41,487 bases of DNA from Spirochaetales bacterium (GTDB lineage Bacteria > Spirochaetota > Spirochaetia > DSM-2461). How positions within the stretch are numbered: the first letter of the stretch is position 1; each line of letters starts with the position of its first letter. Both the position numbers and the translations under genes were made by a program. The stretch spans positions 1 through 41,487 of the forward strand of contig JAFGXR010000074.1 in the NCBI GenBank assembly GCA_016936555.1, read 5' to 3'. The notes below the pieces were generated by a model. The model did no database searches. It had not been told where the DNA came from and saw only the letters and a program-made list of their open reading frames with translations. Positions 9,368 through 33,119 of this stretch are shown one piece after another.

Positions 9368-9865
9368 ATGAAGACGATTCGAATGCGTCTTGCCACTTTT
9401 CTCATTTTGACGGTTATCTGGCTTCTGGTTATGTATCCTTTTTCATCAGCCGATCTGGCATTGGGAGCGGGCATCGCCCTGTTTCTCTCCCTTCTGCCAC
9501 TTCCGGGTTTGAGGATATATGAAGAGATAAGCCCGGCCCCGCGCAAAATCATTTACGCTCTTATTTTTTTACTGGTTTTTGTCAAAGCGGTCATCCTGTC
9601 CAACCTGGATGTGGCGTTCAGGGTTCTCAAGCCCTCACTCCCCATCAACCCCGGTATTGTCAGAGTCAAAACGAAATTGAAAAGCCGCCTCGGCAGACTG
9701 TTTCTGGCCAACGCCATAACCCTGACTCCCGGAACCATAACCGTCGAGGCCGAAGGGGAGGACTTCTACATTCACTGGATCGACGTCGCCTCTCATGATG
9801 TCGATGAAAGCACATCGAAAATCGTCTCGGGCTTCGAGAAATATCTGGAGGTGATCTTTGGTTAA
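9368..9865 (+). CDS. MbxA/MrpE-like Na+/H+ antiporter subunit
   Basis: 165-residue MnhE/MrpE-family subunit, the first gene of the respiratory complex operon. It has two to three N-terminal helices (about 5-35 and 60-80) and a cytoplasmic C-terminal domain typical of the family, with FVKAVILSNLDVAFRVL and NAITLTPGTITVEAEG, both strongly conserved in MrpE/MbhA. In Mbh/Mbx complexes it belongs to the sodium-translocating module. The start at 9368 is chosen over an ATG eight codons earlier because AAGGAGG lies five bases upstream. It overlaps the next gene by 8 bases. Confidence 0.9.
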   Translation: MKTIRMRLATFLILTVIWLLVMYPFSSADLALGAGIALFLSLLPLPGLRIYEEISPAPRKIIYALIFLLVFVKAVILSNLDVAFRVLKPSLPINPGIVRVKTKLKSRLGRLFLANAITLTPGTITVEAEGEDFYIHWIDVASHDVDESTSKIVSGFEKYLEVIFG

Positions 9866-10118
9866 TCAGCTTTTTCTCACAGCCGGAATCATCGTCCTCA
9901 TCGCCGGGGTTCTCTCTTTTTACCGTCTGCTCGCCGGCCCCGACGCGACGGACCGCGTCGTCGCCCTGGACGCCATGACCATCATCTCCCTTTCGGGGAT
10001 CGCCATGTTCGCCTGCTGCTTCGGCAGGGTCATCTACCTCGATGTGGCTCTGGTTTACGGAATCCTGAGTTTTCTCGGGGTCATAGCCCTGGCCCGCTAT
10101 CTGGAAAAGGAGCTCTGA
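9858..10118 (+). CDS. MbxB/MrpF-like antiporter subunit
   Basis: 86-residue three-helix MrpF/MnhF-family protein of the sodium-translocation module. The family segment GPDATDRVVALDAMTI is visible between helices 1 and 2, and DVALVYGILSFLGVIALARYL forms the last helix. The start is TTG at 9858, preceded by GGAGGTGATC at six bases spacing; no ATG start fits. It overlaps the previous gene by 8 bases and ends one base before the next start. Confidence 0.88.
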   Translation: MVNQLFLTAGIIVLIAGVLSFYRLLAGPDATDRVVALDAMTIISLSGIAMFACCFGRVIYLDVALVYGILSFLGVIALARYLEKEL

Positions 10119-10119
10119 T

Positions 10120-10461
10120 ATGATAATGGGATATATCGGCGGAATACTCGCCATAATCGGATCGCTCTTTCTTCTCCTGGCCGCTATCGGACTCATCAGA
10201 ATGCCCGACACCTACAACAGGATGCAGGCCGGAACGAAAGCCACCACGCTGGGAAGCGCCCTTATCTTCGCGGGGATCGCCTTGCATCAGCCCGGATGGG
10301 AACTGAAAATGACGGGACTTATCATCTTCGTTTTTCTCACCAACCCCCTCTCCTCCCACGCGCTGGCGCGGGCGGCCCATTTCATCGGGATGAACCCTTT
10401 CGTCAAGGGAAAGAGCCAATCGTCCCGCGATGACCTGAAGGCAAGGAGGGATGAAGAATGA
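10120..10461 (+). CDS. MbxC/MrpG-like antiporter subunit
   Basis: 113-residue MrpG/MnhG/PhaG-family protein with three helices. The typical RMPDTYNRMQAGTKATTLG motif follows the first helix, and FLTNPLSSHALARAAH closes the third. Strong ribosome site (AAAAGGAG). The stop overlaps the next start (ATGA). Part of the sodium module of the complex. Confidence 0.9.
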   Translation: MIMGYIGGILAIIGSLFLLLAAIGLIRMPDTYNRMQAGTKATTLGSALIFAGIALHQPGWELKMTGLIIFVFLTNPLSSHALARAAHFIGMNPFVKGKSQSSRDDLKARRDEE

Positions 10462-10727
10462 TCTACATCGTAGCCGTTTTGGGTATCGTCATCGCCGTTT
10501 CGGCGGTTTTCGCTCTCTACACGGGGAAAATACTATCGGCCATTATCGCCAGCGGAGCGGTCAGCCTCGTCGCCTCGCTCATCTATATACTGGCGGGAGC
10601 GCCCGATGTCGCCATGACAGAAGCGTCCATAGGTTCGGCTCTGACGACAGTCGTTTTCCTCATAGCCTGGAGGCGGATCAGCCGTATCGTCGCAACCTCC
10701 ACGGAAAAGGAGGATAAAAATGCTTAA
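10458..10727 (+). CDS. MbxD-like subunit (MrpA C-terminal DUF4040 homologue)
   Basis: 89-residue three-helix protein matching the DUF4040 domain found as MbhD/MbxD in archaeal Mbh/Mbx complexes and as the C-terminal part of MrpA. The segment YILAGAPDVAMTEASIGSAL is the conserved core, with the Asp and Glu expected in the ion path. Its ribosome site AAGGAGGGATGAAGA lies within the end of the upstream gene, and it overlaps both neighbours by a few bases. Confidence 0.88.
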   Translation: MIYIVAVLGIVIAVSAVFALYTGKILSAIIASGAVSLVASLIYILAGAPDVAMTEASIGSALTTVVFLIAWRRISRIVATSTEKEDKNA

Positions 10728-11421
10728 AAGAATCCTTCTTATTGTTTCCATGGTTCTTCTGGCGCTTATATTGCTTCCTCTCCTGGAAGGCCTGGGAGAA
10801 CAGACTCATGTTTCCTCTCTGGCGGAATACTATCTCTCCTCCGGCGCCGACGACCTGAACTCACCCAATCTGGTCACTTCGGTCGTCGTAACCTACCGGG
10901 GCCTGGATACGCTGGGGGAAGTGACGGTTCTCTTCGCAGCCGCGGCGGGAATCATGCTGGCCTTCAAAGGGCTGAAGATGGATGAAAAAGAGAGGGAAAA
11001 GACCCAGGGACCCAGCGAACTGCTCGCCAGCGGCGCTTCCCTGCTTTTCCCCATACTCTTCATATTCGGGATCTATATTTTCACTCACGGGCACCTGAGT
11101 CCGGGGGGAGGATTTCAGGGAGGCGTCGTTATCGCTTCGGCCGCCCTCCTTCTTCTTCTCAGCGGCGTCATTCCGGGTGTTTCCCACCTCATGACCTCGC
11201 TCCTCGAAGCTCTTGCCGGAGCCTCCTATGTGGCGATCGGTCTTCTGGGCCTCTATCTGGCGGCGGGATTTCTCGATCCCCGATTCCTTCCCAGGGGCGA
11301 ATGGAGCGGGATATTTTCCGCCGGCGCCATACCGGTCATCTACTCCCTCGTGGGAATAAAAGTCGGCTCGGAGCTCAGCGCCGTACTGAACGCCATGATC
11401 TCCAAAGGAGGTGAAAAGTGA
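10720..11421 (+). CDS. MbxF-like subunit: fused MbhE and MrpB/MbhF domains
   Basis: 233 residues. Residues 1-90 resemble MbhE (an MrpA C-terminal piece), with VVVTYRGLDTLGEVTVLFAA; residues about 100-233 are an MrpB/MnhB domain with FTHGHLSPGGGFQGGVVIASA (121-141) and a conserved helix LEALAGASYVAIGL. The E+F fusion is the arrangement known for Mbx (MbxF) rather than Mbh, where the two are separate. AAGGAGG precedes the ATG. Sodium module, membrane. Confidence 0.85.
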   Translation: MLKRILLIVSMVLLALILLPLLEGLGEQTHVSSLAEYYLSSGADDLNSPNLVTSVVVTYRGLDTLGEVTVLFAAAAGIMLAFKGLKMDEKEREKTQGPSELLASGASLLFPILFIFGIYIFTHGHLSPGGGFQGGVVIASAALLLLLSGVIPGVSHLMTSLLEALAGASYVAIGLLGLYLAAGFLDPRFLPRGEWSGIFSAGAIPVIYSLVGIKVGSELSAVLNAMISKGGEK

Positions 11422-11774
11422 CGCAATTACTCTACATTCTGGCTTTCGTCGTCATGGCGATCGGCCTGTGGGGAATCCTCTCGCGGAGACATCTTATCCG
11501 CATGATCATAGGGTTTTCCATTCTGGATACGGGCATACACATCCTTCTGGTGGCGATCGGCTACCGCAAGGGCGGAACGGCTCCGATCCTCGATGAAGCT
11601 CTTTCGAAGGGAGAGGCTTTAATGAATGCGGTCGACCCCGTCCCTTCGGCTCTGGTTCTGACGGCCATCGTTATCGGCCTGGCCGTTACAGCGCTGATGC
11701 TCAGTTTCGCCGTGCGGATGGTTCAGAATAATCCGACTATGAATGCCGATGAGCACAAGGAGTTGAAATGGTGA
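11418..11774 (+). CDS. MbxG/MrpC/NuoK-like subunit
   Basis: 118-residue MrpC/NuoK-family protein with three helices. Visible marks: GLWGILSRRHLIRMIIGFSILDTGIHILLVAIGYR, and DPVPSALVLTAIVIGLAVTALMLSFAVR, the usual TAIVI-G-A helix of MrpC. The start is GTG at 11418 (GTGA overlap with the preceding stop) with AAAGGAGGTG upstream. The insertion RKGGTAPILDEALSKGEAL between helices 2 and 3 is characteristic of MrpC-type rather than NuoK-type proteins. Confidence 0.88.
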   Translation: MTQLLYILAFVVMAIGLWGILSRRHLIRMIIGFSILDTGIHILLVAIGYRKGGTAPILDEALSKGEALMNAVDPVPSALVLTAIVIGLAVTALMLSFAVRMVQNNPTMNADEHKELKW

Positions 11775-14700
11775 CACCTATTGTTATAATTGCAGCGGCT
11801 CTGGCTATGGCCTTCCTTCTCCCTGTGCTGGAAAAGGCGGGAAAGGGTCTGATAAAAACACTGAGCCTTCTCGTTCTGGCGGGCTTTTTCGCAGCCAGTC
11901 TCTCCTGGGTCGCCCAAATTCTCCAGACAGGAGCCATTATCAGTCAGACAGCCGGTTTCAAAGCGCCCGTATCCATAAACCTGTCGGTTTCCATGATGGA
12001 GGCGACGGGTCTGGCCGTGATTTATCTTGTCGCTTTACTCAGCGGAGCCTTTCAGATCTTCGTAAAGAAAGCGGTCTGGCAGGGGAAAGAGTTGTCCCTC
12101 TACTTCGCTCTCATTCTGGGATTGAGCGGGCTGGTGATGACAAGAGACCTCTTCAACCTCTTCGTTTTTATGGAAATAACATCCATTTCCCTCTACGGGC
12201 TTCTCGTGTCCGGCCGCGATGAGCGGCGATTCGAGGGGGGATTCAAGTACATGATCGCCGGAGGGCTCTCCTCGGCGTTCTACCTTATAGGCGTGGCCTT
12301 CCTCTACAGAGAAACGGGACAGCTCAATCTCGATATCATTGTGGCACAGAGCGGACAGGCCAACCTCTACCTGCCTCTCCTGCTCCTGACGATCGGGATT
12401 CTCATAGAACTGAAACCCTTTCCCGCTAACGGCTGGGCCCTCGATGTGTACGAATCAGCCGATCCGGGAACGGGAGCCGTCATAAGCGCCATGAACACGA
12501 CAGCGCTCATTCTGGTTTTTATGAAATTAATGCCTCTGCTTCAGGCTTTCGGCAGCGGCATTGTCTATGCAGCCCTTATAATCGCCGGCCTGACCTTTTT
12601 CCTTGCCAATCTGGCGGGTATCCGGCAGACCAGCGGCCGCAGAATGCTCGGCTATTCATCGCTTGCCCAGACCGGTCTCATTCTTTTCGTTCTGCTGAGC
12701 CCGTCGGCAGGTTTGTCGGAAGAAAGGGGATTATCGATTATCGCATCGATGCTCCGCCTGGATACAATTGAAGTGATTGCGCTGGCTCTGCTGATCAATC
12801 ACGCTCTGGCAAAAAGCGCTCTTTTCTGGCTGACGGAATTCCTCAAAAAGGACGCACTTCACAAATCATCGGAAGAAGGTGACTACCGCGGCAACAGGGG
12901 CTGGCTCATTCCGGCAGGAATGGCCGTTCTCGCCCTGACGGCTCTGCCCCCCTTCCCGGGATTCTGGGCGAAATGGGCTGTCATAACCTCTTTCGGCGCC
13001 GCCGGAAACATCGGCGGAATCGCCGTCATTCTGATCGGTTCTCTCCTGGAAGTGTATTACCTCTTCCGCTGGTTTATCAGAACCCAGGCCCACGGTGAGG
13101 ATGGCGGAGACGTTATCGCTCCTCAGGTTCCGGAAGATTTTGCACCGGAAGCGGCTCCCGCACCGGCCGGCCTGACCATAAAACCGGCCTGGCAGATTTT
13201 TGCTCCGGCCCTCAGCATCATCATTCTGACATCTCTCGGGCTGGCCTGGGCCTTCCTGAGCCTGTCAGGCGGTCAGGAACTGCTTCTTCTGCCCCTCGCG
13301 GCTCTGGCCCTCTATGCCCTTTTTGATCTTATAGCTCTGCCTTTCGCCGTGAAAAATATTCTGGCCATGGCGGGGCTCGGCGGATACGCTTATCTCATCT
13401 ACGGCGAACTGAACAATATGACGCTTATATTCGGCGCTGTTTTCATTGCCGGTTCACTGGTCCAGCTCTTCCTGCTCTTCAATAAAAGAGATAAGAGATC
13501 GGGGCTTCTCCCCTTTCTGGTAATGATGATCCTCTCGCTGGGGAACCTCCTTGTTTTCAAAAGCTCCCTCGGATTCTTCTTTTCCTGGGAAATGATGACT
13601 GTCTCCTCCTTCTTTCTGGTTATCCGGGGACGACAGGCCTCAAGAGCTTCTCTCCGTTACATCATGTTTTCCCTCGCCGGAGCTTTTATGATCATGTACG
13701 CGCTGGCCGACGGATTCAGAGGTCCGCTTACAGGACTGGTTTTCGCAATAGGCCTTCTGATCAAAATGGGCGCGATCGGGTTCCATATCTGGCTTCCCGG
13801 CGCTTATGCGGAAGCGGAGGACGAAGTTTCCACCTTTCTCAGTTCGGTTCTCAGCAAAGCGGGACTTTTCATTCTCTTTATCACGGCGGGAATCTACGGA
13901 CAGACATTCTTTCCGGGCGCGGGCAATGCCTTTCTCGCCTCGATCGACATCAACGCCATTCTGGGTTGGATCGGCGTCATAACCGCTCTGGCGGGAGCGA
14001 TGATGGCCCTCTTCCAGGAGGATATCAAATACACTCTGGCCTATTCTTCCATGGGGCAGATCGGCTATATGATACTGGCCTTCAGCATCCAGTCCCATCT
14101 GGGCTGGGTGACAGCTCTCTATCTGGCTGTGACCCATCTCCTCTTCAAAGGGCTCCTCTTCATGGCCATAGCCGGCGTTATCATGAGGACGGGAACCCGG
14201 CTCATGTATCAGATGGGAGGATTGATTAAGAAGATGCCCATCAGCTTTATCTCCGTGCTTCTGGCGATTATCGCCCTTTCCGGCGTCCCGCCGCTGACAG
14301 GATTCGGCGGCAAGTGGCTGCTTTACTCTTCGCTTATGGAGAAGGGCTGGTATCTCCACGCGGGACTGGCCATGTTCTCATCGGGCGTCGCCTTCCTCTA
14401 TCTGTTCCGGCTGATCCACACGATTTTCCTGGGGCAGCCCAAAACCGGCATGTTTGAAAACATCAAGGAAGCGCCGATCTGGGGCCTAATCCCCCAGGCG
14501 ATTTTCATGATGGTCATCATGGGATTCTCCATGTTCCCCTCCCTGCTGATCAAGCCGCTCCAGGCTGCGGTGGAAATGGTTTATCCCGCCGCCGCCGAAG
14601 GCGTGGCCTGGCAGGGCTCCACGGTTCTGTCGTCCCTGGGCTACTGGAACGGCTCGGCAGTTATGTACGTCACCATGGGAGTTTTTCTGATTCCCCTGGC

Positions 14701-15004
14701 CTGGCTGATGATCGTGAACGGCAGAATCCAGAAGGTGAAGCAGTTCAATATCGTTTTCGCCGCCGAACGGCCCTATAAACCGGAAACGACCCACTATGCC
14801 TACAATTTCTTCTCCCACTATCAGAAAGCCCTCGGCTTCCTGGTCGAAGTGCGGGCCGAGCGGTTCTGGACCATGATAAGGAAATCGACTGACGCCCTCG
14901 GCGGGCTGGTGCGCAGGATCTATTCGGGCAACGCCCAGACCTACGCCTTCCATATCATCATTTTCGTCATACTATTCCATCTTCTGGCAGGAGGGACATT
15001 CTGA
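11768..15004 (+). CDS. MbxH-MbxH' fusion: two proton/sodium-conducting antiporter-like subunits in one chain
   Basis: 1078 residues made of two NuoL/M/N-MrpD-like units. First half (1-500): Glu136 in FVFMEITSI, Lys216 in LIELKPFPANGW, Lys349 in NHALAKSALFW. Second half (about 505-1078): Glu608 in FFSWEMM, Lys666 in LLIKMGAIGFHIWLPGAY, Lys697 in VLSKAGL, Lys794 in THLLFKGLLF. These are the Glu/Lys residues of the proton path in complex I antiporter-like subunits. A charged, Ala/Pro-rich linker (about 438-472) lies near the join. In archaeal Mbx, H and H' are separate genes in this position; here they are fused without a frameshift. ATG with CAAGGAG upstream. Two pumps suggest a greater coupling capacity than Mbh, which has one. 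Confidence 0.9.
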   Translation: MVTPIVIIAAALAMAFLLPVLEKAGKGLIKTLSLLVLAGFFAASLSWVAQILQTGAIISQTAGFKAPVSINLSVSMMEATGLAVIYLVALLSGAFQIFVKKAVWQGKELSLYFALILGLSGLVMTRDLFNLFVFMEITSISLYGLLVSGRDERRFEGGFKYMIAGGLSSAFYLIGVAFLYRETGQLNLDIIVAQSGQANLYLPLLLLTIGILIELKPFPANGWALDVYESADPGTGAVISAMNTTALILVFMKLMPLLQAFGSGIVYAALIIAGLTFFLANLAGIRQTSGRRMLGYSSLAQTGLILFVLLSPSAGLSEERGLSIIASMLRLDTIEVIALALLINHALAKSALFWLTEFLKKDALHKSSEEGDYRGNRGWLIPAGMAVLALTALPPFPGFWAKWAVITSFGAAGNIGGIAVILIGSLLEVYYLFRWFIRTQAHGEDGGDVIAPQVPEDFAPEAAPAPAGLTIKPAWQIFAPALSIIILTSLGLAWAFLSLSGGQELLLLPLAALALYALFDLIALPFAVKNILAMAGLGGYAYLIYGELNNMTLIFGAVFIAGSLVQLFLLFNKRDKRSGLLPFLVMMILSLGNLLVFKSSLGFFFSWEMMTVSSFFLVIRGRQASRASLRYIMFSLAGAFMIMYALADGFRGPLTGLVFAIGLLIKMGAIGFHIWLPGAYAEAEDEVSTFLSSVLSKAGLFILFITAGIYGQTFFPGAGNAFLASIDINAILGWIGVITALAGAMMALFQEDIKYTLAYSSMGQIGYMILAFSIQSHLGWVTALYLAVTHLLFKGLLFMAIAGVIMRTGTRLMYQMGGLIKKMPISFISVLLAIIALSGVPPLTGFGGKWLLYSSLMEKGWYLHAGLAMFSSGVAFLYLFRLIHTIFLGQPKTGMFENIKEAPIWGLIPQAIFMMVIMGFSMFPSLLIKPLQAAVEMVYPAAAEGVAWQGSTVLSSLGYWNGSAVMYVTMGVFLIPLAWLMIVNGRIQKVKQFNIVFAAERPYKPETTHYAYNFFSHYQKALGFLVEVRAERFWTMIRKSTDALGGLVRRIYSGNAQTYAFHIIIFVILFHLLAGGTF

Positions 15005-15936
15005 TGTTAACATCAATTTTAACCAAAGCCCTGTACACCCTCATATCCTTCTTCGTGATACTCAATTATTCCCTTCTGCTTCTGGGAACGATGGCAAGGG
15101 TAAGGGCCAAGGTTCAGGGGCGTATCGGCCAGCCGGTCTGGCAGCCCTATATCGATATTATCAAGAACAACGCCCGGAGAAGCGGCGTCACCCACGGGAT
15201 CATGTTCTACCTCGGGCCGGTCTTCCGGCTGGCGGGAGGACTGGGAACCTATTTCTTCATCCCCGTCATCTTCGGATCGAAAATTTTCGCCAACTTCAGC
15301 TTTTCCGGCGATGTGCTGCTCGTCATGTATTTCATCTTCTTCGGACAGCTGGGCATGGCCCTGGGAGCCGGAGAGAGCGGACACCCCTACAGCCCCATCG
15401 GGGTCGCACGGGGCCTGGCCCAGATGACGGCCTTCGAACTGCCCTTCTCGCTGGCGGTTATCGCCGTCGCCGCCCAGTACGGCAGCTTCTCCATTACGGA
15501 GATCGTTGCCGCCCAGCAGGGAGGATGGCAGAACTGGGTGGCCTTTACCAACCCCTTCGCCATGGCCGCCGGCATGCTGGCCTTCCTGGGAATGTCCATG
15601 AACAATCCCTTCTCGATCGTTATCGCGCCGCAGGAAATTCCCATCGGGCCGCCGACGGAAATGCATTCCTCATTCCTGGGGATGCTGCAGACCAACCGGG
15701 CCATCTTCAACGGCGCCAAAATGGTTCTCTTTATGAACCTCTTCTTCGGCGGAGCGGCCCATCCCAATATATTCATCGCCCTGGGAATCATGATCATGAA
15801 GACCTTCCTCATCTACCTCTACGTGGTCTTCGTCGGCGTTTCATTCCCCCGGTTCCGGACCGAACAGTCCATCCGGTTCTTTCTGGGAGTCCCCACTCTG
15901 CTGGGACTGATCGCTGTGATCCAGCAGATGATTTAA
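15004..15936 (+). CDS. MbxM/NuoH-like membrane subunit
   Basis: 310-residue NuoH/HyfC/MbhM-family protein with about eight helices, linking the hydrophilic arm to the pumps. Conserved regions: RVRAKVQGRIGQPVWQPY near the N-terminus, GVARGLAQMTAFELPFSL with the functional Glu, and the loop IGPPTEMHSSFLGMLQ, which faces the quinone-like or catalytic site in complex I relatives. It starts one base inside the preceding stop (TGATG). The gene precedes J rather than following L, the order known from Mbx. Confidence 0.9.
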   Translation: MLTSILTKALYTLISFFVILNYSLLLLGTMARVRAKVQGRIGQPVWQPYIDIIKNNARRSGVTHGIMFYLGPVFRLAGGLGTYFFIPVIFGSKIFANFSFSGDVLLVMYFIFFGQLGMALGAGESGHPYSPIGVARGLAQMTAFELPFSLAVIAVAAQYGSFSITEIVAAQQGGWQNWVAFTNPFAMAAGMLAFLGMSMNNPFSIVIAPQEIPIGPPTEMHSSFLGMLQTNRAIFNGAKMVLFMNLFFGGAAHPNIFIALGIMIMKTFLIYLYVVFVGVSFPRFRTEQSIRFFLGVPTLLGLIAVIQQMI

Positions 15937-15946
15937 GGAGTTTGAT

Positions 15947-16603
15947 GTGAGTGACAATATGAATGATATGGACCAGATACAGCTCTTCAACGACCAGGGC
16001 AGGCTCCTCAACGCCGGTCTTCCCGACGAGGAAAAAGCCCTGTTCTGCGACGCCGCGCCTCAGGTCGACGCCCCCTACCGGGGCATCTGGGAGAAATTCC
16101 TCAACTGGGCCCGATCCGAATCCCTCTGGATTCTCGGCTTCGGTACGGGCTGCGGAGCCATAGAGCTCCGCCCTCTTATGACCAGCCGCTACGACATGTA
16201 TCAGTACGGCGTTCAGCCCAGGCCGACGCCGCGCCAGGCCGGGCTCTTCATCATCGGAGGTTACGCCTCGGTCAAAACCATGAAGAGAATCGTCCGCTCC
16301 TACGAGCAGATGCAGGGCCCCAAGTTCGTTCTGGGACTGGGAAGCTGCACGGTAAACGGCGGCATGTACTGGGACAGCTACAACACGATAAACAGACTGG
16401 ACCACTATATACCGGTGGATGTCTACATCGCCGGATGCATGCCCAGGCCCGAAGCTCTCCTGGCGGGCATCAACGAGCTGAAGAAGCTTATCAAAGAAGG
16501 AAAAGGCGAAAACGCCAACAAGTATGCGGAAAATTTCGAATGGTACAAACGGAACCAGAAGAAAATCATCAAAGACTGGAATATGCCGGACTACAACTGG
16601 TAA
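15947..16603 (+). CDS. MbxJ/NuoB-like iron-sulfur subunit with three cluster cysteines
   Basis: 218 residues, NuoB/MbhJ family; carries the proximal [4Fe-4S] cluster next to the L subunit. Candidate ligands are Cys69 (GFGTGCGAIE), Cys134 (GLGSCTVNGG) and Cys164 (AGCMPRPEAL). The fourth ligand, which is an adjacent Cys in NuoB (CC) or CxxC in hydrogenases, is replaced: Gly follows Cys69. Three-cysteine ligation matches the site-differentiated cluster described for the archaeal sulfane-reducing Mbs complex. The start is GTG at 15947 with AAGGAG six bases upstream; an in-frame ATG at 15959 is possible. Cys34 near the N-terminus is outside the motif. Confidence 0.88.
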   Translation: MSDNMNDMDQIQLFNDQGRLLNAGLPDEEKALFCDAAPQVDAPYRGIWEKFLNWARSESLWILGFGTGCGAIELRPLMTSRYDMYQYGVQPRPTPRQAGLFIIGGYASVKTMKRIVRSYEQMQGPKFVLGLGSCTVNGGMYWDSYNTINRLDHYIPVDVYIAGCMPRPEALLAGINELKKLIKEGKGENANKYAENFEWYKRNQKKIIKDWNMPDYNW

Positions 16604-16612
16604 GGAGAGGAC

Positions 16613-17149
16613 ATGACTGAATTTAACGAATTATCCAGACAATTCCAGATCTCCGATCTGAAGGAACAGAGAGCGGACCTCCACTTCTTCCATGCGTCGA
16701 AGGAACACGCGGTGGCGGTCCTTACCAGCCTGAAGGAAAAGTACGGCTACACCCATCTGGTGTTTTTTACGGTCGTCGATCACCTGGAAAAAAACGAATT
16801 TCATTTGACTTATATGCTCCACAATTACGAGAAGCATCACGATATGGGAGTGGTTGTGAAAATAGCCCGGGAGAATGTTCAGATGGAGTCGATCCATCAC
16901 CTCTGGCCGGCGGCGGCCACCTATCAGCAGGAGATACGGGAGATGTACGGCGTCGAGTTCCCCGGCAGCCCCGGGCTCTATGAGAACTTCGCCCTCGAAG
17001 GCTGGGAGGACATCCCCCCCATGCGCCGCGATTTCGACACGAAAGAATACTCGGACAAAACCTATTACCCGCGGCCCGGAAGAGAGTCGCACGATCCGAG
17101 GGAGTATATGAAAGAAAATCTTTATCCCGGCGAGGCGGAAACATGGTAA
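16613..17149 (+). CDS. MbxK/NuoC-like subunit
   Basis: 178-residue NuoC/MbhK-family protein (30-kDa subunit type). Family marks are YTHLVFFTVVDHLEKNEFHLTYML and the segment WPAAATYQQEIREMYGVEFPG, then the RRDF region near the C-terminus. It binds no cofactor and scaffolds the J-L pair on the cytoplasmic face. AAGGAGAGG precedes the ATG; the last 7 bases overlap the next gene. Confidence 0.9.
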   Translation: MTEFNELSRQFQISDLKEQRADLHFFHASKEHAVAVLTSLKEKYGYTHLVFFTVVDHLEKNEFHLTYMLHNYEKHHDMGVVVKIARENVQMESIHHLWPAAATYQQEIREMYGVEFPGSPGLYENFALEGWEDIPPMRRDFDTKEYSDKTYYPRPGRESHDPREYMKENLYPGEAETW

Positions 17150-18315
17150 AAGAAAAAGAAAACAGCAAGTTTCCTCCCCTGGTGGACGGAAAAAGCCAGT
17201 ACGATCTGACATCGGGCAAATACCTGAGGGTCTGGCAGGGCCCCCAGCATCCGGGTATTACCGGAAACATGTCGCTGGAGCTGACGATCTGCGGAGACGA
17301 GATCATAGACTGCAAAACCCATGTGGGCTACCTCCACAGAGGCTTCGAAAAGCTGATGGAGCGGAGAAAATACATCCAGTGCTTTCCCGTGGTCTGCCGG
17401 ATCTGCGTGCCCGAACCGGATTTCAACGAATACCTTTTCGCGGCGTGCACCGAAGAGCTGGCGGGAATACAAATACCCGAACGGGCCGAATGGATCCGGA
17501 CTCTCAATCTGGAAATGGCCAGGCTGACCAGCTTCCTCATGTGGATCGGCGGCCAGGCGGGCTCTTTCGGCATGGGAACCATCGGCCAGTGGACCGTCAC
17601 CCTCCGCGACTATATGCTCGACCTCTTCGAGGAACTGACCGGCGGAAGAATCTACCACATGTACATGCTTCCCGGAGGCGTCCGGGCCGATTTCCCCCCG
17701 GGATGGATCAATAAGCTGCTGGATACGCTCAAAACGGTTGAGAAGACCCTCGATGATGTGGAACTGGCCATGATGCACAACGCCGTCTTTAAAATGAGGG
17801 CGAAAGGCCTGGGAATCATAACGCCCGATATGGTGGATAAATACGGCATAACCGGCCCCAACGCCAGAGCAGCGGGCGTGGCCAGGGATATCAGGAAAGA
17901 CTCCCCCTACCTCGTTTACGACAAACTGGATTTCGAAATCGTCACGGGAACGAAGTCCGATGCCTACGGGCGTTGCGAAGTGCGGATAAAAGAGATGTAT
18001 CAGTCTATAGACCTGATCAGGCAGATCGTGGAGAAAATGCCCAAGGAAGGCCCTTTCTTCACCAAACTGCCCAACGTTCTCCACTGGCGGATCCCCGCCG
18101 GACACACTTACAAACGGGCCGAATGCACCAGAGGGGAATACGGATTCTACGTCCAGTCCGACGGATCGGACAAGCCGAGGCGGACCTATGTGAGAGGCCC
18201 CTCCTACACCCATGCCGTGGCTCTTATGGAGCATCTGGCCATCAGGACCAATATCGCCGATACGGCCGGTTTAATGGTCAGCCTGCACACCTATCCGCCG
18301 GAAATAGAGAGGTAA
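17143..18315 (+). CDS. MbxL/NuoD-like large subunit lacking the C-terminal NiFe cysteine pair
   Basis: 390 residues, NuoD/large-hydrogenase family. The N-terminal region retains one CxxC, CRIC (Cys85, Cys88) followed by VPEPDFNE, but the C-terminal DPCxxC of NiFe hydrogenases is absent: the chain ends LHTYPPEIER. The NiFe centre thus cannot be bound in the usual way, so proton reduction is unlikely. This pattern is that of Mbx/Mbs rather than Mbh. The QHPGITGNM region and KTHVGYLHRGFEKLMERR match NuoD/MbhL. It overlaps the upstream K gene by 7 bases. The active reaction is inferred from the attached N subunit (see findings). Confidence 0.9.
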   Translation: MVKEKENSKFPPLVDGKSQYDLTSGKYLRVWQGPQHPGITGNMSLELTICGDEIIDCKTHVGYLHRGFEKLMERRKYIQCFPVVCRICVPEPDFNEYLFAACTEELAGIQIPERAEWIRTLNLEMARLTSFLMWIGGQAGSFGMGTIGQWTVTLRDYMLDLFEELTGGRIYHMYMLPGGVRADFPPGWINKLLDTLKTVEKTLDDVELAMMHNAVFKMRAKGLGIITPDMVDKYGITGPNARAAGVARDIRKDSPYLVYDKLDFEIVTGTKSDAYGRCEVRIKEMYQSIDLIRQIVEKMPKEGPFFTKLPNVLHWRIPAGHTYKRAECTRGEYGFYVQSDGSDKPRRTYVRGPSYTHAVALMEHLAIRTNIADTAGLMVSLHTYPPEIER

Positions 18316-18318
18316 GAG

Positions 18319-20103
18319 ATGAGTTTAAAAGACATTATAGCCCCCTTTTCCGTGTGGAAAAGAGCTCTGGAAAAACCCTATACGAACAGAAAGCCCATTG
18401 AAACCCGGCCGGGAGCCGACCGCTACCGGGGGTTTCATCAGAACGCCATAGACCAGTGCATCGGCTGCGGAACCTGCGAGGAGATCTGCCAGAACAACGC
18501 CATCGACCTGGTTCCCCTGGAAGGGAAGACAAGCTCCCACGGCGATTCGGGGCTGAGGCCGAAAATCGATTACGGCCGGTGCTGCTGGTGCGCCCTCTGT
18601 GTGGACATCTGCCCGACCGGCAGCCTGGGAATGAGCAACGAGTACATCTGGATCACCACCGATCCGGAGGACTTCCGCTTTATCCCCGGCGGCGAGTCCA
18701 AGCCCTGGGACGACCGGGCCGAAGGATACAGGCGCGCCGAAGGCTACGATCTTCTCGAAGCGGAACGGGTGGAAATGCCCATGCTCTCCTTCGAGGAATC
18801 GCAGAAGAGCTTTATCGAAATGGTTCAGGGTTACAGCAAAGAACAGGCCATGGAGGAAGCGGATCGCTGCGTGGCCTGCGGAATCTGTATCGCCACCTGT
18901 CCCGCCCATATGGACGTTCCCGCCTATATCGAAGCGATCCGCAATGACGATATGGGAGAAGGACTGAAAATCGTCTACAACGCCAATCCCCTGCCGGCGA
19001 GCTGCGGGCGGGTCTGTTCTCATGCCTGCGAGTATGTCTGCGCCATGAAGCACAAAGGCGAAGCCATTTCCATCCGCTGGCTCAAGCGTTACATCATCGA
19101 TCAGATCTATCTGGGCGATTACAAGGAAATCCTGAAGAGCGCCGACGAGAGCAACGGAAAGAAAATCGCCGTAATCGGTTCCGGCCCCGGAGGATTGAGC
19201 GCCGCTTATTATCTCCGGCTTCTGGGATATGAAATCACCGTATTCGACGCCAACGAGAAAGCCGGGGGTATGCTCCGCTACGGAATCCCCGAATACAGGC
19301 TCCCCTACGAACAGGTGGATAAGGATGTGGAATACATCCGGCAGCTGGGCGTCACCATAAACCAGGACCTGAAGATCGGCGTGGACCGGGATTTCAAAAG
19401 CCTTTATGACGAGTACGACGCCATTTTCTTCTCCACGGGATTGAAAGATCCCTACGGACTGGAAATTGCCGGAGAAGATCTTCCGGGCGTCCAGTCCGGT
19501 CTGGATATTCTCGACGAAGTGACCAAAGGCAAAACTCCCGACATCGGTAAATCGGTTGTCGTCGTGGGAGGCGGAAACGTGGCCATGGACGCGGCCAGAA
19601 CGAGCCGCCGCTACGGGGCCGAAGTGACCATCCTCTACAGAAGGCGGGAAGTGGATATGCCCGCCGACGAAGAGGAGATCCATGAGTCTCAGGGAGAGGG
19701 ATGCAAGCTGGTCACCCAGGCCATACCGCTCCGCGTGGAGAAAGGCGACTCGACCAGGCTGAAACTGTTCTTCGGAATGGCGGAAATGGTTGACCAGGGC
19801 GAAGGCCAGAGGCCCAAACCGGTTCTGATCGAAGGATCGGAGGAAGTCATCGAATGCGATTCGGTCATTACGGCCATCGGACAGGAAGCGGATTACAGCT
19901 TCATTCCCGAAGAGATCGGCAAAAACCTGGTGTTCAACCGCGGCATGGTTCAGATCAATGAGTTCAGGCAGACAGGAGATTCCAAGATCTTTGCCGGAGG
20001 TGATATCGCCAACCGCAAGCGCGATGCCATCAGCGCCATTGCCGACGGGCATTCGGCGGCGAAAGGGATCGATATCTACCTGACGAATTTTAAAGAAAAA
20101 TGA
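18319..20103 (+). CDS. MbxN-type ferredoxin fused to a GltD/NfnB-like FAD/NAD(P)H oxidoreductase
   Basis: 594 residues. Residues 1-120 are an MbhN/NuoI-like double-cluster ferredoxin: Cys47, 50, 53, 57 and Cys88, 91, 94, 98. Residues about 145-270 are the N-terminal Fe-S region of GltD/NfnB proteins: Cys184, 187, 190, 194 and Cys229, 233, 237, 241. FAD-binding GSGPGG is at 287-292, the NAD(P)-binding GGGNVAMDAART at 417-428 followed by LYRRRE (suggesting NADP(H)), and the FAD C-terminal FAGGDI at 558-563. This joins the electron-input subunit of the membrane complex to a pyridine nucleotide site. In other Mbx operons N is a plain ferredoxin. Last gene of the operon; the 3 bases before its ATG separate it from L. 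Confidence 0.92.
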   Translation: MSLKDIIAPFSVWKRALEKPYTNRKPIETRPGADRYRGFHQNAIDQCIGCGTCEEICQNNAIDLVPLEGKTSSHGDSGLRPKIDYGRCCWCALCVDICPTGSLGMSNEYIWITTDPEDFRFIPGGESKPWDDRAEGYRRAEGYDLLEAERVEMPMLSFEESQKSFIEMVQGYSKEQAMEEADRCVACGICIATCPAHMDVPAYIEAIRNDDMGEGLKIVYNANPLPASCGRVCSHACEYVCAMKHKGEAISIRWLKRYIIDQIYLGDYKEILKSADESNGKKIAVIGSGPGGLSAAYYLRLLGYEITVFDANEKAGGMLRYGIPEYRLPYEQVDKDVEYIRQLGVTINQDLKIGVDRDFKSLYDEYDAIFFSTGLKDPYGLEIAGEDLPGVQSGLDILDEVTKGKTPDIGKSVVVVGGGNVAMDAARTSRRYGAEVTILYRRREVDMPADEEEIHESQGEGCKLVTQAIPLRVEKGDSTRLKLFFGMAEMVDQGEGQRPKPVLIEGSEEVIECDSVITAIGQEADYSFIPEEIGKNLVFNRGMVQINEFRQTGDSKIFAGGDIANRKRDAISAIADGHSAAKGIDIYLTNFKEK

Positions 20104-20141
20104 TGTCAGGGAGGGTTGTTGCAGAAGTAGAGATTGTCTGC

Positions 20142-20199
20142 TCCCCTCATCCCCTTCCCGTTCTCCCTCTCCTTTGGGAGAGGGCCGGGGTGAGGGTTG
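20142..20199. repeat. Nested GC-rich palindromic intergenic repeat
   Basis: Inner stem CCCTCTCC (20165-20172) / GGGAGAGGG (20176-20184) around TTT, inside an outer pairing of CCCTCATCCCC (from 20144) with GGGGTGAGGG (20187-20196). This CCCTCACCCC/GGGAGAGGG-type element is a dispersed intergenic repeat seen in many bacterial genomes. It may also act as the 3' hairpin of the Mbx operon, though no T tract follows. Confidence 0.6.
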
Positions 20200-20366
20200 G
20201 GAAAAACGCTCTCTCAGAAAAGCTGTGTTCAGAGATCTCACACAGTCTGCCTGGCAGAGTCTCAGTGTGAGGGTTTGAAACATATGACAAAAGACTTTGA
20301 CTATAGCCATTTTGCCGACGATAGGATATTGTTACTGCTGATTATAAACTTTTACAAAGGATATAT

Positions 20367-20687
20367 ATGGAAGACCGACAGGAATTGATAAATCAGATAC
20401 AATCACGCTTTGTCGTGGAACGGTGCGAGCAGGTGGAACAGCTGCTGATGATTATGTCCAATCCGGTCCGCTTTCATATCCTCTGTGCCGTCAGCCAGGG
20501 AGCTTTCACCGTAACCGAACTGGTATCCATATGCGGTTCCAAATTATCCAATGTAAGCCAGCAGCTGAAAATCATGACCCTTTCAGGATTTCTGGAAAAG
20601 GAACGGGACGGGAAACAGATGTACTATAAGCTCAAAGATCAGAGAGTCCTGAAGCTGATCGATTATCTGGAAACTCTCTATTCCTGA
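20367..20687 (+). CDS. ArsR-family winged-helix transcriptional regulator
   Basis: 106-residue regulator. Helix-turn-helix at about residues 46-72 (GAFTVTELVSICGSKLSNVSQQLKIM), followed by the beta-wing FLEKERDGKQMYYKL. NPVRFHILCAV is the usual helix before it. Cysteines at 20, 40 and 56 are present; the classical ELCVCDL metal site is not, so I do not call it arsenic-responsive. It lies 263 bases after the Mbx-type operon on the same strand and its stop abuts the convergent YhhN gene. ATG 20367 has AAAGGA six bases upstream. A regulatory role for the neighbouring operon is possible but unproven. Confidence 0.88.
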   Translation: MEDRQELINQIQSRFVVERCEQVEQLLMIMSNPVRFHILCAVSQGAFTVTELVSICGSKLSNVSQQLKIMTLSGFLEKERDGKQMYYKLKDQRVLKLIDYLETLYS

Positions 20688-24896: not shown

Positions 24897-27146
<2,250 letters not shown>

Positions 27147-29859: not shown

Positions 29860-31854
29860 TTACTGATAGATATCCATAAAGGTACTGTGATCATAACTGA
29901 AATGTGATGCATTATATCGGCCATCAGGATCGCAGGATCTGATTTCATTGTTACTGAAATAGTATAAGCGGTTCAAATCAAGAACAAAAGCGAGACCCAT
30001 AGGATAGGTCAGGCCCGAGACAATCGTTTCAACTTTTCCGGTTGCGATTTCAAGTCGTTTTATGGAACCCCTCCCTTCGGGAACCCAATTCGACCAGAAT
30101 AAAAAAAGGTTTGCTTCATCAAGCGCCAGACTGTGGGGAGACTCCTGACCTGAAACTAAGATTTCCCGATCGGATCCGTCTGTTGAAATTCTGAGAATTG
30201 TCCCTTCTGATTCATCGGTAATATACAGTTTATCATCCCCGGCATCCAGAGCCAGTCCAATAGGCGCATCCACAACACTCTCATCGAGGAGAATCTGCAC
30301 ACCGGAACCATCGGAACGTGACGTTTTAACTGTTTTGTTTCCAAAATCGGTCCAGTATAATCTTTGCTTTTCAGGATCTACGGCGATATCAGCGGGCATA
30401 ACAAGATCCTCATCGATTAATTGAATCTTTCCGTTTCCCAGAAAATCGGACTGGAAAATCGCACCTCTGCTGTAATCAGTCCAATAAATTTTTCTGTCCT
30501 GTCGGTCCAGGGCAATACCATAGGAATTGAATATCCCATAATGTCTCATATCTTCGCTTTGATCGGAACCCGGTGAAAATGATGACATGAAGCCATGATC
30601 ATTTGCCATATAAATCCTGATGTTTTCTTCATGGCTTTCCGGAAAGAAAAGAACACTGTGATTGTTCTCTATTCCCGTAAGAGAGAAGCTGGTGGTCATG
30701 ATTAAATTATCCCGAATCACCACATCTGTAAATCCGTCATGCAAACCGGTCAGGTCGATCCTGTCCAGAATATCCTGATTATGATTGACCACAAGGATCC
30801 GGGATCCCGTATTAAGATACGCTCTGTCGGCTGTAATGGCTATTCCCCGAAAAGATTGCCCCTCTATATTAAGTAGCTCTTGATCGCTACCGTCAGTATT
30901 CATCGACAGAACGCCATCAATCTCGTTTTTCCCTACAACATATAATCTGCCGTCGAAGATACACATGTCTATATAATCCGAAGCGTCATTCCGGGAAGAA
31001 AAGGCCAGCGCGAACTGATCGATCAAATCGAGGGTAAACTTGTCCAGAATATAAATGATATCGGTTTCTCTATCGGCGACGTAAAGGCGGTCCCCGGATA
31101 TGAGAATGGATACAGGTTGGGATCCCAAAGACTTTTCTCTCAAATAAGAAAACCCGCTATCGTATTCGATGATTTTACTATCGTCGAGATCGCAGGCCCA
31201 TAATGTTCCGGAATCCTTATCAATGGCAATTCCATGTATTCCCGCAGCGCCGGCAAGATCGAATACCGAACTGTTGATTCCCGATTGCCCCGGCATAGGC
31301 ACTTTCATCAGCTTGTTGTTTTTCCAGTTGACGGTAAAGAGATATCCCTCGTAGTAAACCAGATTGTATCCGCCGTCTTCTCCTCCTGTATCGAGAATTC
31401 CGGAGGGAACAGAACTGTCAAAATAATCCGGACCGCTCCTTCCCGCATCCGTTGGGACAGCGATTTCCATGTCAGAGGGAACGGTCAGCTTCCTGCCCAG
31501 TCCGTTATAGGCGATGATGGAAGTCCCTTCCTCCTCTGTCTTCCAGAACAGGATATCCGATTTCCAGTCCCCATCAACATCATAGGTGTCCAATAAGCGA
31601 TACCCTTCAGGGACGGAAAACTTCCTGAGGGACTCTCCTTTTCCATTAAAGATTCCGACATAAAGCCCCTCATCACTGAGATATTCCACATCTTCCTTTC
31701 CCAGAATATCCGCCGCGACAAGCCGGTCCTTATCGTTTCCATTGAAGTTGTATAATAAATCCGCGGTGTCTGAGGAAATCAAATCCCTTATTTTTCCATT
31801 GGAACAGGAAAACACAATAGTTACAATGAAAAGCAGAAAGAACCGGGCTCTCAT
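29860..31854 (-). CDS. Lipoprotein with FG-GAP-like and YWTD (LDL-receptor class B-like) beta-propeller domains
   Basis: 664 residues. Lipobox VFSC (Cys17). An acidic DVDGDWKSD loop (92-100) resembles the calcium-binding loop of FG-GAP/VCBS repeats. Residues about 160-430 contain NHL-like blades. Residues about 440-640 contain YWTD repeats: YWTD at 457-460 and 500-503, YITD at 544-547, degenerate FWSN and YYFSN later; such repeats are typical of LDL-receptor class B propellers, used for protein binding. ATG 31854 is preferred, with AAAGG upstream; the TTG at 31860 has no proper spacing. It starts 2 bases after the kinase stop, hence same transcript as RR and HK. An extracytoplasmic sensor role for the kinase is a reasonable guess. 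Confidence 0.82.
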   Translation of the reverse strand: MRARFFLLFIVTIVFSCSNGKIRDLISSDTADLLYNFNGNDKDRLVAADILGKEDVEYLSDEGLYVGIFNGKGESLRKFSVPEGYRLLDTYDVDGDWKSDILFWKTEEEGTSIIAYNGLGRKLTVPSDMEIAVPTDAGRSGPDYFDSSVPSGILDTGGEDGGYNLVYYEGYLFTVNWKNNKLMKVPMPGQSGINSSVFDLAGAAGIHGIAIDKDSGTLWACDLDDSKIIEYDSGFSYLREKSLGSQPVSILISGDRLYVADRETDIIYILDKFTLDLIDQFALAFSSRNDASDYIDMCIFDGRLYVVGKNEIDGVLSMNTDGSDQELLNIEGQSFRGIAITADRAYLNTGSRILVVNHNQDILDRIDLTGLHDGFTDVVIRDNLIMTTSFSLTGIENNHSVLFFPESHEENIRIYMANDHGFMSSFSPGSDQSEDMRHYGIFNSYGIALDRQDRKIYWTDYSRGAIFQSDFLGNGKIQLIDEDLVMPADIAVDPEKQRLYWTDFGNKTVKTSRSDGSGVQILLDESVVDAPIGLALDAGDDKLYITDESEGTILRISTDGSDREILVSGQESPHSLALDEANLFLFWSNWVPEGRGSIKRLEIATGKVETIVSGLTYPMGLAFVLDLNRLYYFSNNEIRSCDPDGRYNASHFSYDHSTFMDIYQ

Positions 31855-31856
31855 GG

Positions 31857-33119
31857 TCAAACCTTTAACGGCACGATTATATTGACAAAAGCCCCTACGG
31901 AACTCCGGTTTCCCGTCTCCATAAATCCCCCGTTGGACTCACTGATTCGGCTGCAGATTTTCAATCCCAGCCCCATGCCTGAGCTTTTTCGCTGATCCCT
32001 GAATCCGGGGCCGTTATCCTCGACGGAAAATTTCAGATGAGAGGAGTACTCATCTATCTTTTTCAAAGAAATTTTTATCATTTTATGCCCTTCGATTGTT
32101 TCCAGAACCTGCAAAGAATTTTTAATGGGATTGGAGAAAAGAGAAATTAAATCGATTTCCTGTATGGTTATATCTATTCTTTCATCTGTATCCAGCGTTA
32201 TCAAATCCCGCTTATGGGCCGGAACGGTAAGCAGAATGACATCATTTAGAACGCTAACGGCATCAATACGGCGGGGGCTGTCTTTACGAGTTACCAGATA
32301 AATTTGCTTCATTTTACTGATATGCTTCTGAATCGTTTTGAAACCGACTTCGTATTGCCTGCAAATGCCTTCGAGTTCTTCTGTAATGGATGAGATTTTA
32401 TTTCGGAATTCCCGATGAGATTTTGAATCCAAATGTTTAAGAGATTCCAGTTCTCCCATTATTTCCCGGAGAAAATAAACATTCCCTTCCATATGGTTCA
32501 GAGGATTGTTCACCTCATGAACAAAAGAAGCGGTCATATTCTGCAGCTGATGGGCTCTTTCATACTCCAGAAGCTGCCTGTTCATTTCCGTAATCCTTTC
32601 TGCGACTTCCAAACCCATTTGGTCTTGAAGGATCTGCCTGTTCCCCATGACCTGAGCTAAATACATTACAAGCATGACAAGACTGAGTATCAGGGAACTG
32701 GAAAGGGCATGGTCTTTCAGAAAAGAGAGTAAGAGAAGCTGGCCTAAAACAGCTAAGGAAAGGACTGTAAATCCCTTTGCAGATTCGAAACCCGTAGCCA
32801 GAATAATGCTCGATAAAACATGAACGATTCCGGTCATAATGATAAAATAAGGGGGACTTCCGCCGGATATGCCATCGGGTAGAAAAAAATAAAACAGAAA
32901 GAAAAGCAAAAGAGAAAGTGCCAATCGGTTCATGAGAATAATGTTCTTTATAGGAAAGTTACCGAAATGGGAAACGGGCATTAGAAAATAGAGAGACAGG
33001 CAGCCGGCAATCAGATATCTGATATAATAATAATGCTGGGGAAGATACAGGAAGGAAAGGAATCCTGTAATGGAGAGAAATACGATATCGGTCAAAATGA
33101 GAATGACCGGAGGAGTCAT
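31857..33119 (-). CDS. Membrane histidine kinase with six-helix N-terminal sensor
   Basis: 420 residues. N-terminal region of about six helices (roughly residues 5-160) with little loop sequence, so it may sense within the membrane or through a partner. A coiled-coil linker EVAERITEMNRQLLEYERAHQLQN leads to the phosphoacceptor ASFVHEVNNPLNHMEGN (His201). ATPase boxes: SNPIKNSLQVLE (N box), VEDNGPGF (G1) and GMGLGLKIC (G2). The start ATG 33119 has AGGAA upstream; an ATG at 33143 would overlap the regulator. It is encoded 4 bases after the sigma-54 activator and immediately before the YWTD lipoprotein, which defines its partners. Confidence 0.88.
   Translation of the reverse strand: MTPPVILILTDIVFLSITGFLSFLYLPQHYYYIRYLIAGCLSLYFLMPVSHFGNFPIKNIILMNRLALSLLLFFLFYFFLPDGISGGSPPYFIIMTGIVHVLSSIILATGFESAKGFTVLSLAVLGQLLLLSFLKDHALSSSLILSLVMLVMYLAQVMGNRQILQDQMGLEVAERITEMNRQLLEYERAHQLQNMTASFVHEVNNPLNHMEGNVYFLREIMGELESLKHLDSKSHREFRNKISSITEELEGICRQYEVGFKTIQKHISKMKQIYLVTRKDSPRRIDAVSVLNDVILLTVPAHKRDLITLDTDERIDITIQEIDLISLFSNPIKNSLQVLETIEGHKMIKISLKKIDEYSSHLKFSVEDNGPGFRDQRKSSGMGLGLKICSRISESNGGFMETGNRSSVGAFVNIIVPLKV

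Follow-up and report, generated by a model that had tools for sequence, protein, structure and literature searches.

We analyzed a 41,487-nucleotide stretch of DNA from a Spirochaetales bacterium (assembly GCA_016936555.1, contig JAFGXR010000074.1; hereafter the window), which carries an operon related to the Mbx and Mbs respiratory complexes. The operon comprises 12 genes on the plus strand between positions 9368 and 20103, and the genome holding it is 4.73 Mb in 134 contigs and 95% complete. Open frames and Pfam families gave the order A-B-C-D-EF-G-HH'-M-J-K-L-N. An earlier note, made from the sequence alone, had read the same order but counted ten overlapping genes; overlaps were found at 7 of the 11 junctions, and gaps of 1–10 bases at the other four. 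The operon almost certainly encodes a bacterial complex of the Mbx/Mbs clade in which N, the electron-input subunit, includes an NADP(H) dehydrogenase module, as judged from the sequence comparisons below. Loci, contigs and genomes are referred to by L, C and G numbers.

9368–9865, plus: A, MrpE/MnhE-like membrane subunit (PF01899, MNHE, 3.7e-36)
9858–10118, plus: B, MrpF-like membrane subunit with a TTG start (PF04066, 8.7e-18)
10120–10461, plus: C, MrpG-like membrane subunit (PF03334, PhaG, 1.4e-25)
10458–10727, plus: D, MbhD-like membrane subunit (PF13244, 3.2e-19)
10720–11421, plus: EF, fused MbhE and MrpB/MnhB-like subunits in a single frame (PF20501 and PF04039)
11418–11774, plus: G, MrpC/NuoK-like subunit (PF00420, Oxidored_q2, 1e-24)
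11768–15004, plus: HH', two antiporter-like ion pumps in a single 1078-residue chain (PF00361, Proton_antipo_M, two stretches)
15004–15936, plus: M, NuoH-like membrane anchor (PF00146, NADHdh, 1.8e-42)
15947–16603, plus: J, NuoB-like subunit (Oxidored_q6) predicted to hold the proximal 4Fe-4S cluster, with C69, C134 and C164 (MbsJ, 6u8y_J, 9.8e-66)
16613–17149, plus: K, NuoC-like subunit (PF00329, Complex1_30kDa, 7e-25)
17143–18315, plus: L, NuoD-like subunit (Complex1_49kDa) without a NiFe site, CRIC at 85–88 (MbsL, 6u8y_L, 5.2e-96; tree)
18319–20103, plus: N, electron-input subunit with a ferredoxin-like part (about 1–140) and a StnC/NfnB-type GltD part (about 150–594) with putative FAD and NADP(H) sites (PF14691, PF07992, Fer4; NF010590)

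The Mbx-type operon is real: the matches of L to MbsL (5e-96) and of J to MbsJ (1e-65), together with the same gene order in other phyla, rule out chance. The fusion of E and F was seen as described before, with the MbhE and MnhB domains in one frame. Two pumps had also been predicted, and two Proton_antipo_M stretches were found, but H and H' share one frame. The halves of this chain match chains H and X of the membrane-bound sulfane reductase (MBS) of Pyrococcus furiosus (6u8y), X being taken as H'; of the pump residues, E214 aligns with MbsH E219 and K666 with MbsH' K217. HH' was a single frame in 26 of 39 judgeable loci, including the window, and two frames in 13 (9 of 48 loci were cut or unclear; L029, which was unclear, was entered as two frames). 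M precedes J in all 49 other Mbx-type loci showing both genes, and lies 3' of L in three loci of the membrane-bound hydrogenase (MBH) type (L101, L103, L104). In the P. furiosus MBS, which likewise has two pumps, M also precedes J.

L scored highest against MbsL (325 bits), ahead of the best complex I chain (220 bits) and MbhL (148 bits), and J scored highest against MbsJ (225 bits; next best 134, MbhJ 88). In an L tree of 73 rows, all 41 L proteins from loci with a fused N formed one clade with MbsL and with the L of an operon in the same genome that has an unfused N (C101), with a support of 100/100. The [NiFe] group 4 and complex I-type L proteins fell outside it. The clade with MbsL was again 100/100 in a second tree of 57 rows. 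The affiliation with Mbx/Mbs, rather than with [NiFe] hydrogenase or complex I, that the earlier note had proposed was thus recovered in both trees. The first tree omitted L033 and L064, had 30 nuo rows (L064 included) thinned to 9, and had no L protein of 300 residues from L030, L031 and L036. The second omitted L033 together with L158 and L159, which nearly duplicate other rows; it lacked an L from L030, L031, L036 and L165, and L025 and L164 were not entered. The protein sets exclude the short-window duplicates L001–L005, L046 and L047. Since the position of MbsL among the fused-N lineages was weak (83/73 in the 73-row tree, no resolution in the 57-row tree), we make no claim that archaeal MBS lost an NAD(P)H module.

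The residues around the redox chamber agreed with this placement. L ends in ...HTYPPEIER and lacks the C-terminal NiFe cysteines, as had been read before. Of the four positions that carry NiFe cysteines, L keeps only C88, its N-terminal pair having also lost the second cysteine, and the two CxxC pairs of [NiFe] hydrogenase group 4 were not found; MbsL retains two of the four positions. The quinone-site His and Tyr of complex I align with T40 and V83 of L, and the excerpts on MBS describe that complex as likewise lacking them (PMC7684303). In J, C69, C134 and C164 correspond to MbsJ C28, C93 and C123, with no fourth cysteine and with G66 at the position of MbsJ C25. J has a single cysteine, C69, in place of the hydrogenase CxxC or the complex I CC, and all 50 Mbx-type loci having both J and L show the three cysteines. 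In MBS the proximal cluster is bound by MbsJ C28, C93 and C123 only, C25 being too distant; its open iron has been proposed as the polysulfide-reducing site, and redox-pump coupling in the superfamily is thought to sit at the J/L/M chamber (PMC7684303). The J cluster may therefore be a three-cysteine catalytic site like that of MBS, with a ligand from L possible.

N (594 residues) combines Fer4-type clusters within residues 45–102 with Fer4_20 (163–262) and Pyr_redox_2 (282–577) domains, so that the fusion to an NfnB/GltD-type module proposed earlier is present in one chain. The iron-sulfur clusters assigned to both parts are matched by cysteines that do not vary across 34 of 34 sequences, 9 of them in the ferredoxin part and 8 in the GltD part. 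MbsN (208 residues) was matched by the ferredoxin-like part only. The three best sequence matches of N were the StnC/NfnABC large subunits (8oh5, 9bov, 9n5u); the best structural match of its GltD part was NfnL (5jca_L), and the fold also matches StnC. The AlphaFold model of N was good in the GltD part, and residues 1–146 had pLDDT values mostly <50.

The suggestion that the single-chain fusion may be uncharacterised did not hold. The NCBIfam model NF010590/PRK13984 ("putative oxidoreductase") covers residues 2–590 of 594 (model positions 7–608 of 611) at 700 bits, which is below its equivalog cut-off of 946 bits; N thus appears to be a relative of this family that is not filed as that equivalog. 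At E <= 1e-150, Thermotoga maritima was the only one of the 14 control genomes with a match, which exceeded the cut-off; 11 of 198 Spirochaetota genomes had matches, none of which exceeded it. The T. maritima protein, we assume, sits within the Mbx unit of that organism. A literature search on PRK13984, TM1217 and MbxN found nothing relevant.

The fusion is a known sequence family and is widespread. A collection search with N yielded 40 fetched loci, in 32 of which N lay directly 3' of L; among the remaining eight, L036 and L039 start inside N, and L038, L040 and L042–L045 match the GltD part only, at 30–40% identity. The ten nearest N loci are spirochaetes by record title, including Candidatus Marispirochaeta associata, and are 75–79% identical. 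The 32 loci span Spirochaetota groups, Cloacimonadota, Gammaproteobacteria, Neomarinimicrobiota, Bacteroidales, Acidobacteriota, Aminicenantes and Fermentibacteria, which makes eight phylum-level groups, with two loci labelled "bacterium" only; these labels come mostly from metagenome bins and may err. The L protein of the window was matched at 1e-60 or better in 33 of 392 Spirochaetota genomes, 20 of which carry 24 long L matches (283 bits or more; the next match had 238 bits, and an incomplete match at the end of contig C147 of G047, 49% identical, was left uncounted). A fused N lay 3' of L at 21 of these 24 Mbx-type L genes, with 698 intervening bases in L090 and 195 in L089, so the fusion is not the unusual feature it was first taken for. 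Two of the 24 have a short N of about 140 residues (C101 of the window genome, and G380), and in one (G089) L is at a contig edge, while another contig has a fused N at its edge. A unique or unknown sequence family was ruled out by the NF010590 match and this recurrence.

The flavin side of N resembles that of StnC. In P. furiosus NfnL, E126 is a ligand of the FAD-side cluster, and its replacement uncouples the bifurcation branches (PMC9503767). StnC has a lysine, K170, at that place, and its authors conclude that the StnC flavin is non-bifurcating (PMC10482914). K256 of N aligns with both residues, with the position counted from printed alignment rows. The lysine was present in 54 of 54 fused N proteins and also in the alignments with 8oh5, 9bov and 9n5u, and the FAD arginine R327 (NfnL R201, StnC R239) was likewise kept in 54 of 54. 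The operon encodes no NfnA-like partner; the nfnAB pair of the genome is on C100. Because Lys replaces Glu126 as in StnC, a linear conduit from NADPH through FAD to the iron-sulfur clusters is suggested, and the flavin of N is likely to be non-bifurcating. A bifurcating flavin of the NfnL type was rejected on the same residue. N contains a ferredoxin-like and a GltD part only, and the NuoG-like part of StnC and its StnAB partners were not found. We therefore consider that the GltD part may work like the StnC module, and that N is not StnC.

Window N has Y440-R441-R442, matching the YRR motif of NfnL. Two conserved arginines of NfnL bind the extra phosphate of NADP (PMC6405883), and we read these as the arginines of that motif. 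Among 54 fused N proteins, 38 have the RR pair (NADP-type); in the other 16 the same strand ends in an acidic residue, typically as CLE or SLE (NAD-type). An acidic residue at this strand end is usual for NAD binding. Judged by these residues, window N very probably uses NADP(H) rather than NAD(H). The NAD-type proteins score higher on NF010590 and still fall below its cut-off (881 bits for a second copy in the window genome, on C97, and 917 for L094).

In the N tree, the NADP- and NAD-types were parted by a single branch (100/100), whereas they were not separated in the 57-row L tree. There, the pairs L028 with C97 and L026 with L027, all with NAD-type N, nest in NADP-type L groups on well-supported branches. 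These branches imply three or more switches of the NAD label; for the NADP label the number is four, a figure in which the pair with a short N is also counted. Since the N tree splits by type and the L tree does not, the simplest reading of these trees is that the N subunit has been exchanged between operons. The window genome itself has three Mbx versions: the window operon (C119, NADP-type) and the two operons on C97 and C101.

G000 C97 (L052:6025–10475), minus: second Mbx operon with a fused N, NAD-type, cut at the contig end inside M
G000 C101 (L053:419–9790): third Mbx-type operon, with a short unfused N of 141 residues without the NAD(P) part, and A relocated 3' of N

The arrangement of C101, with an unfused N and A behind it, was also seen in G380 (L156).

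A cysteine near the catalytic cluster differed between J and L. C88 of window L corresponds to MbsL C85 (in RICVPEPD); three residues earlier, window L has C85 (forming CRIC), where MbsL has a leucine, and the position of MbsL C385 is a tyrosine. In MBS, MbsL C85 and C385 adjoin the proximal cluster, and neither these nor MbsJ C25 are catalytic (PMC7684303). L-Cys85 probably lies close to the J cluster, by analogy, because its neighbour cysteine lies there in MbsL. In the 50 loci, the cysteine was present in L only (Cys85) in 38, in J only (the C25 place) in 7, in both in 3 (L094, L155, L157) and in neither in 2 (L026 and C97, the latter with a cysteine one residue earlier). A Fisher test of this table gave p = 4e-5, a value that takes related loci for independent ones and should not be read as a fair probability. 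In the L tree, L094, L155, L157 and L088 formed a branch (100/100) adjoining the larger group of the window type (84/92, not strong). It seems from these sequences, which are related and record only a few events, that the cysteine moved from J to L; the place of this branch would suit an order in which L gained its cysteine before J lost the other.

Neighbouring genes were compared in the first 44 fused-N loci. N is followed by 600 bases or more in 40 of them, and A is present with 700 bases or more ahead of it in 28. The first gene 3' of N in the window is that of an ArsR-family regulator.

20367–20687, plus: ArsR-family regulator (PF12840/PF01022)

Eleven loci, including the window, have ArsR-type genes within 4 kb after N, and two have them before A, with more than one subfamily represented; BLAST relatives of the window protein were near 12 of the other 43 fused-N loci at varied positions. 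It is possible that this protein regulates the operon. We do not assign it a role as a sulfur sensor, as its match to the BigR model (57 bits) was under the cut-off of 155. C20 and C40 are common to 9 of 13 grouped sequences including the window protein, which has no C-terminal cysteine. The genome also holds five FeFe-hydrogenase matches, RnfC on another contig and the nfnAB pair noted above, and is for this reason probably that of a fermenting anaerobe with other outlets for ferredoxin. Its matches of the CoA-disulfide reductase/NSR type were below the cut-off (446 against 578.8), which was not reached in any control genome, so they have no bearing on sulfur reduction. A relative of Rnf was rejected, since the matches shown for the operon proteins included no rnf family.

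As a tentative best reading, the complex may be an ion-pumping NADPH:sulfane/disulfide oxidoreductase. In the C-terminal part of N, FAD would accept a hydride from NADPH. Electrons would then travel singly, first via the two 4Fe-4S clusters of the GltD part and next via the pair of ferredoxin-like clusters of N, and would arrive at J, whose proximal 4Fe-4S cluster would sit at the top of the J/L/M chamber. There, the three-cysteine cluster, probably with L-Cys85 nearby, would cleave an S–S bond of polysulfide or another disulfide, as in archaeal MBS. Reduction of this bond would power H+ or Na+ translocation through the HH' pumps and the Mrp-like module, and the machine might also run in reverse. 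NADPH-driven S–S reduction is favoured because the chamber cluster is MBS-like and strictly kept, and N supplies electrons from NADPH. The chances of the S–S step itself appear evenly balanced, and we infer the sulfur substrate, the direction and the ion. In T. maritima, mbxA, part of a 13-subunit Mbx unit, was up 4.36-fold with S0 (PMC9431562), which by analogy supports a sulfur role in a relative.

The potential of polysulfide lies near -260 mV. In cells, NADPH is near -370 mV and NADH near -280 mV (PMC10482914). A complex of the NADP-type could pump about one ion per electron pair with polysulfide.

Several observations weigh against the sulfane/disulfide reading. The NAD-type with polysulfide as the acceptor would have almost no driving force, a point in favour of reverse flow or another acceptor in that type, or one against sulfur in general. 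L-Cys85 could act as a fourth cluster ligand, which would close an MBS-type site. The ferredoxin part of N was undefined in the AlphaFold model, which does not support the wire between the two halves. A gene for a Rex-type, NADH-sensing regulator stands immediately before A in 5 of 28 loci (L027, L031, L034, L035 and L037, by BLAST grouping; L031 was scanned), which points to NAD(H) balance rather than to sulfur. A scan of the window for a Rex-box pattern led no further, with one site of 3 mismatches, outside the operon, against 1.49 expected by chance. No sulfur-specific family was found among the identified recurring neighbours, the families present in 3–5 loci being mostly not identified, and biochemistry on a purified bacterial Mbx was not found in the literature searched.

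The main rival is an ion-translocating ferredoxin:NADP+ oxidoreductase, an NADP-linked counterpart of Rnf, in which ferredoxin would dock on N, NADP+ would be reduced on the GltD part and the drop would drive the pumps. It offers a bigger driving force (ferredoxin -500 mV, NADPH -370 mV), and "Mbx ferredoxin:NADP oxidoreductase" is an existing name (PMC4596419, PMC6349859). The upstream Rex-type genes fit it, as does nfnAB behind N in three loci: directly 3' of N in L006 (11791–14153) and L012 (11799–14137), and two genes further on, behind CBS-domain and ArsR-type genes, in L026 (12082–14273). However, both substrates would react on N, so that electrons could bypass the coupling chamber, the J site is nevertheless strictly conserved, and the genome is already equipped with RnfC and nfnAB. 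We regard this rival as unlikely, though a serious contender. Of the two functions that the earlier note had offered, NAD(P)H-driven reduction of sulfane sulfur or disulfides fits the chamber anatomy better, and the ferredoxin:NADP+ reaction remains as this rival.

A further alternative keeps the same machine but gives the chamber a substrate that is neither sulfur nor a disulfide, for example a diiron protein partner or an electron carrier, either soluble or in the membrane. Rubrerythrin-like diiron genes lie 3' of N in 10 of 40 loci (L021, L023, L024, L029, L089, L090, L092, L093 and L096 by BLAST grouping, two of them scanned, and L027 by Pfam). The site has changed, as L-Cys85 is not at that place in MbsL, and in complex I the same chamber serves for quinones (PMC7684303). 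Against this stand the loss of the quinone His and Tyr, the three MBS-like cysteines of J at all 50 loci and the lack of a diiron gene beside the window operon, which make such a substrate improbable. As a side observation, the rubrerythrin-like proteins of L029 and L096 weakly match the end of PRK12775, a model of an Nfn-ferritin fusion. Flavin-based bifurcation, in which the N flavin would split NADPH electrons between ferredoxin and the sulfane site as NfnL does with NAD+, draws on the NfnL-like fold and the shared FAD arginine. It is very improbable in view of the invariant lysine, shared by StnC, whose flavin is concluded to be non-bifurcating despite the same arginine, and of the missing NfnA-like subunit. 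A [NiFe] hydrogenase or a true complex I, with which the operon shares common fold families only, was rejected and can be practically dismissed on the single remaining NiFe cysteine position, the lost quinone residues, a J without CxxC or CC, and both L trees.

Of the nearest known systems, P. furiosus MBS shares with the window complex the best matches of L and J, the clade, the three-cysteine cluster, two pumps and the absence of NiFe and quinone residues. It differs in MbsN, which is ferredoxin-like only where window N adds an NADP(H) flavoprotein part, in the separate H and H' chains, and in the cysteines of J and L. The NF010590 family, with its T. maritima member, is homologous to N over its full length, the window protein differing by its score and its NADP-type. 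The StnC/NfnABC large subunit shares the GltD part with NADPH, FAD and two clusters, the lysine and the arginine; it differs in having its own NuoG-like part and in feeding a bifurcating HydBC-like module (PMC10482914), whereas the window module joins a ferredoxin-like subunit of a membrane pump. NfnB/NfnL (4ylf, 5jca) has the same fold and FAD/NADPH site but differs at Glu126, in its NfnA partner and in the absence of the ferredoxin-like fusion. MBH (6cfw) and complex I share core subunits, and differ by the NiFe cysteines or quinone residues missing in the window and by their separate branches.

Other features of the window were as follows. Antisense open frames lie over N (18325–20310, minus, 661 residues) and L (17122–18234, minus, 370 residues) and are most likely codon-use shadows rather than genes. 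Near this anaerobic respiratory operon there is a catalase-peroxidase type gene with two peroxidase-domain stretches (24897–27101, minus). A 666-residue protein (29860–31860, minus) matches LDL-receptor class B repeats of the beta-propeller type, an unusual name in a bacterium.

The kind of Mbx with an NAD(P)H module is already known from Thermotoga, and the window operon is a variant of it. What is new here is the invariant lysine, the division into NADP- and NAD-types on which the L and N trees disagree, and the apparent cysteine shift from J to L. No statement of the lysine rule for Mbx, of the split or the exchange of N, or of the cysteine shift was found in the literature searched, a weak negative, since most subscription papers lay outside that search. 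A bolder and doubtful proposal is that N is a swappable cartridge, with NADPH-, NADH- or ferredoxin-only forms on one pump core and all three in the window's cell. Together with a rebuilt site, in which the J cysteine that is idle in MBS is lost and L-Cys85 (usually as the CRIC pair) would allow disulfide cleavage like that of ferredoxin-thioredoxin reductase (FTR), this would give an ion-pumping NADPH:disulfide reductase.

The characterised MBS is fed by ferredoxin, whereas 21 of 24 Mbx-type L genes of Spirochaetota precede an N with an NAD(P)H-dehydrogenase module. These findings bear on how relatives of complex I gained their NAD(P)H input along a different route from that of complex I itself. 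The lysine/glutamate rule, the NADP/NAD split and the apparent cysteine shift are each directly testable, and a genome with three Mbx versions of differing electron input provides a natural comparison set.

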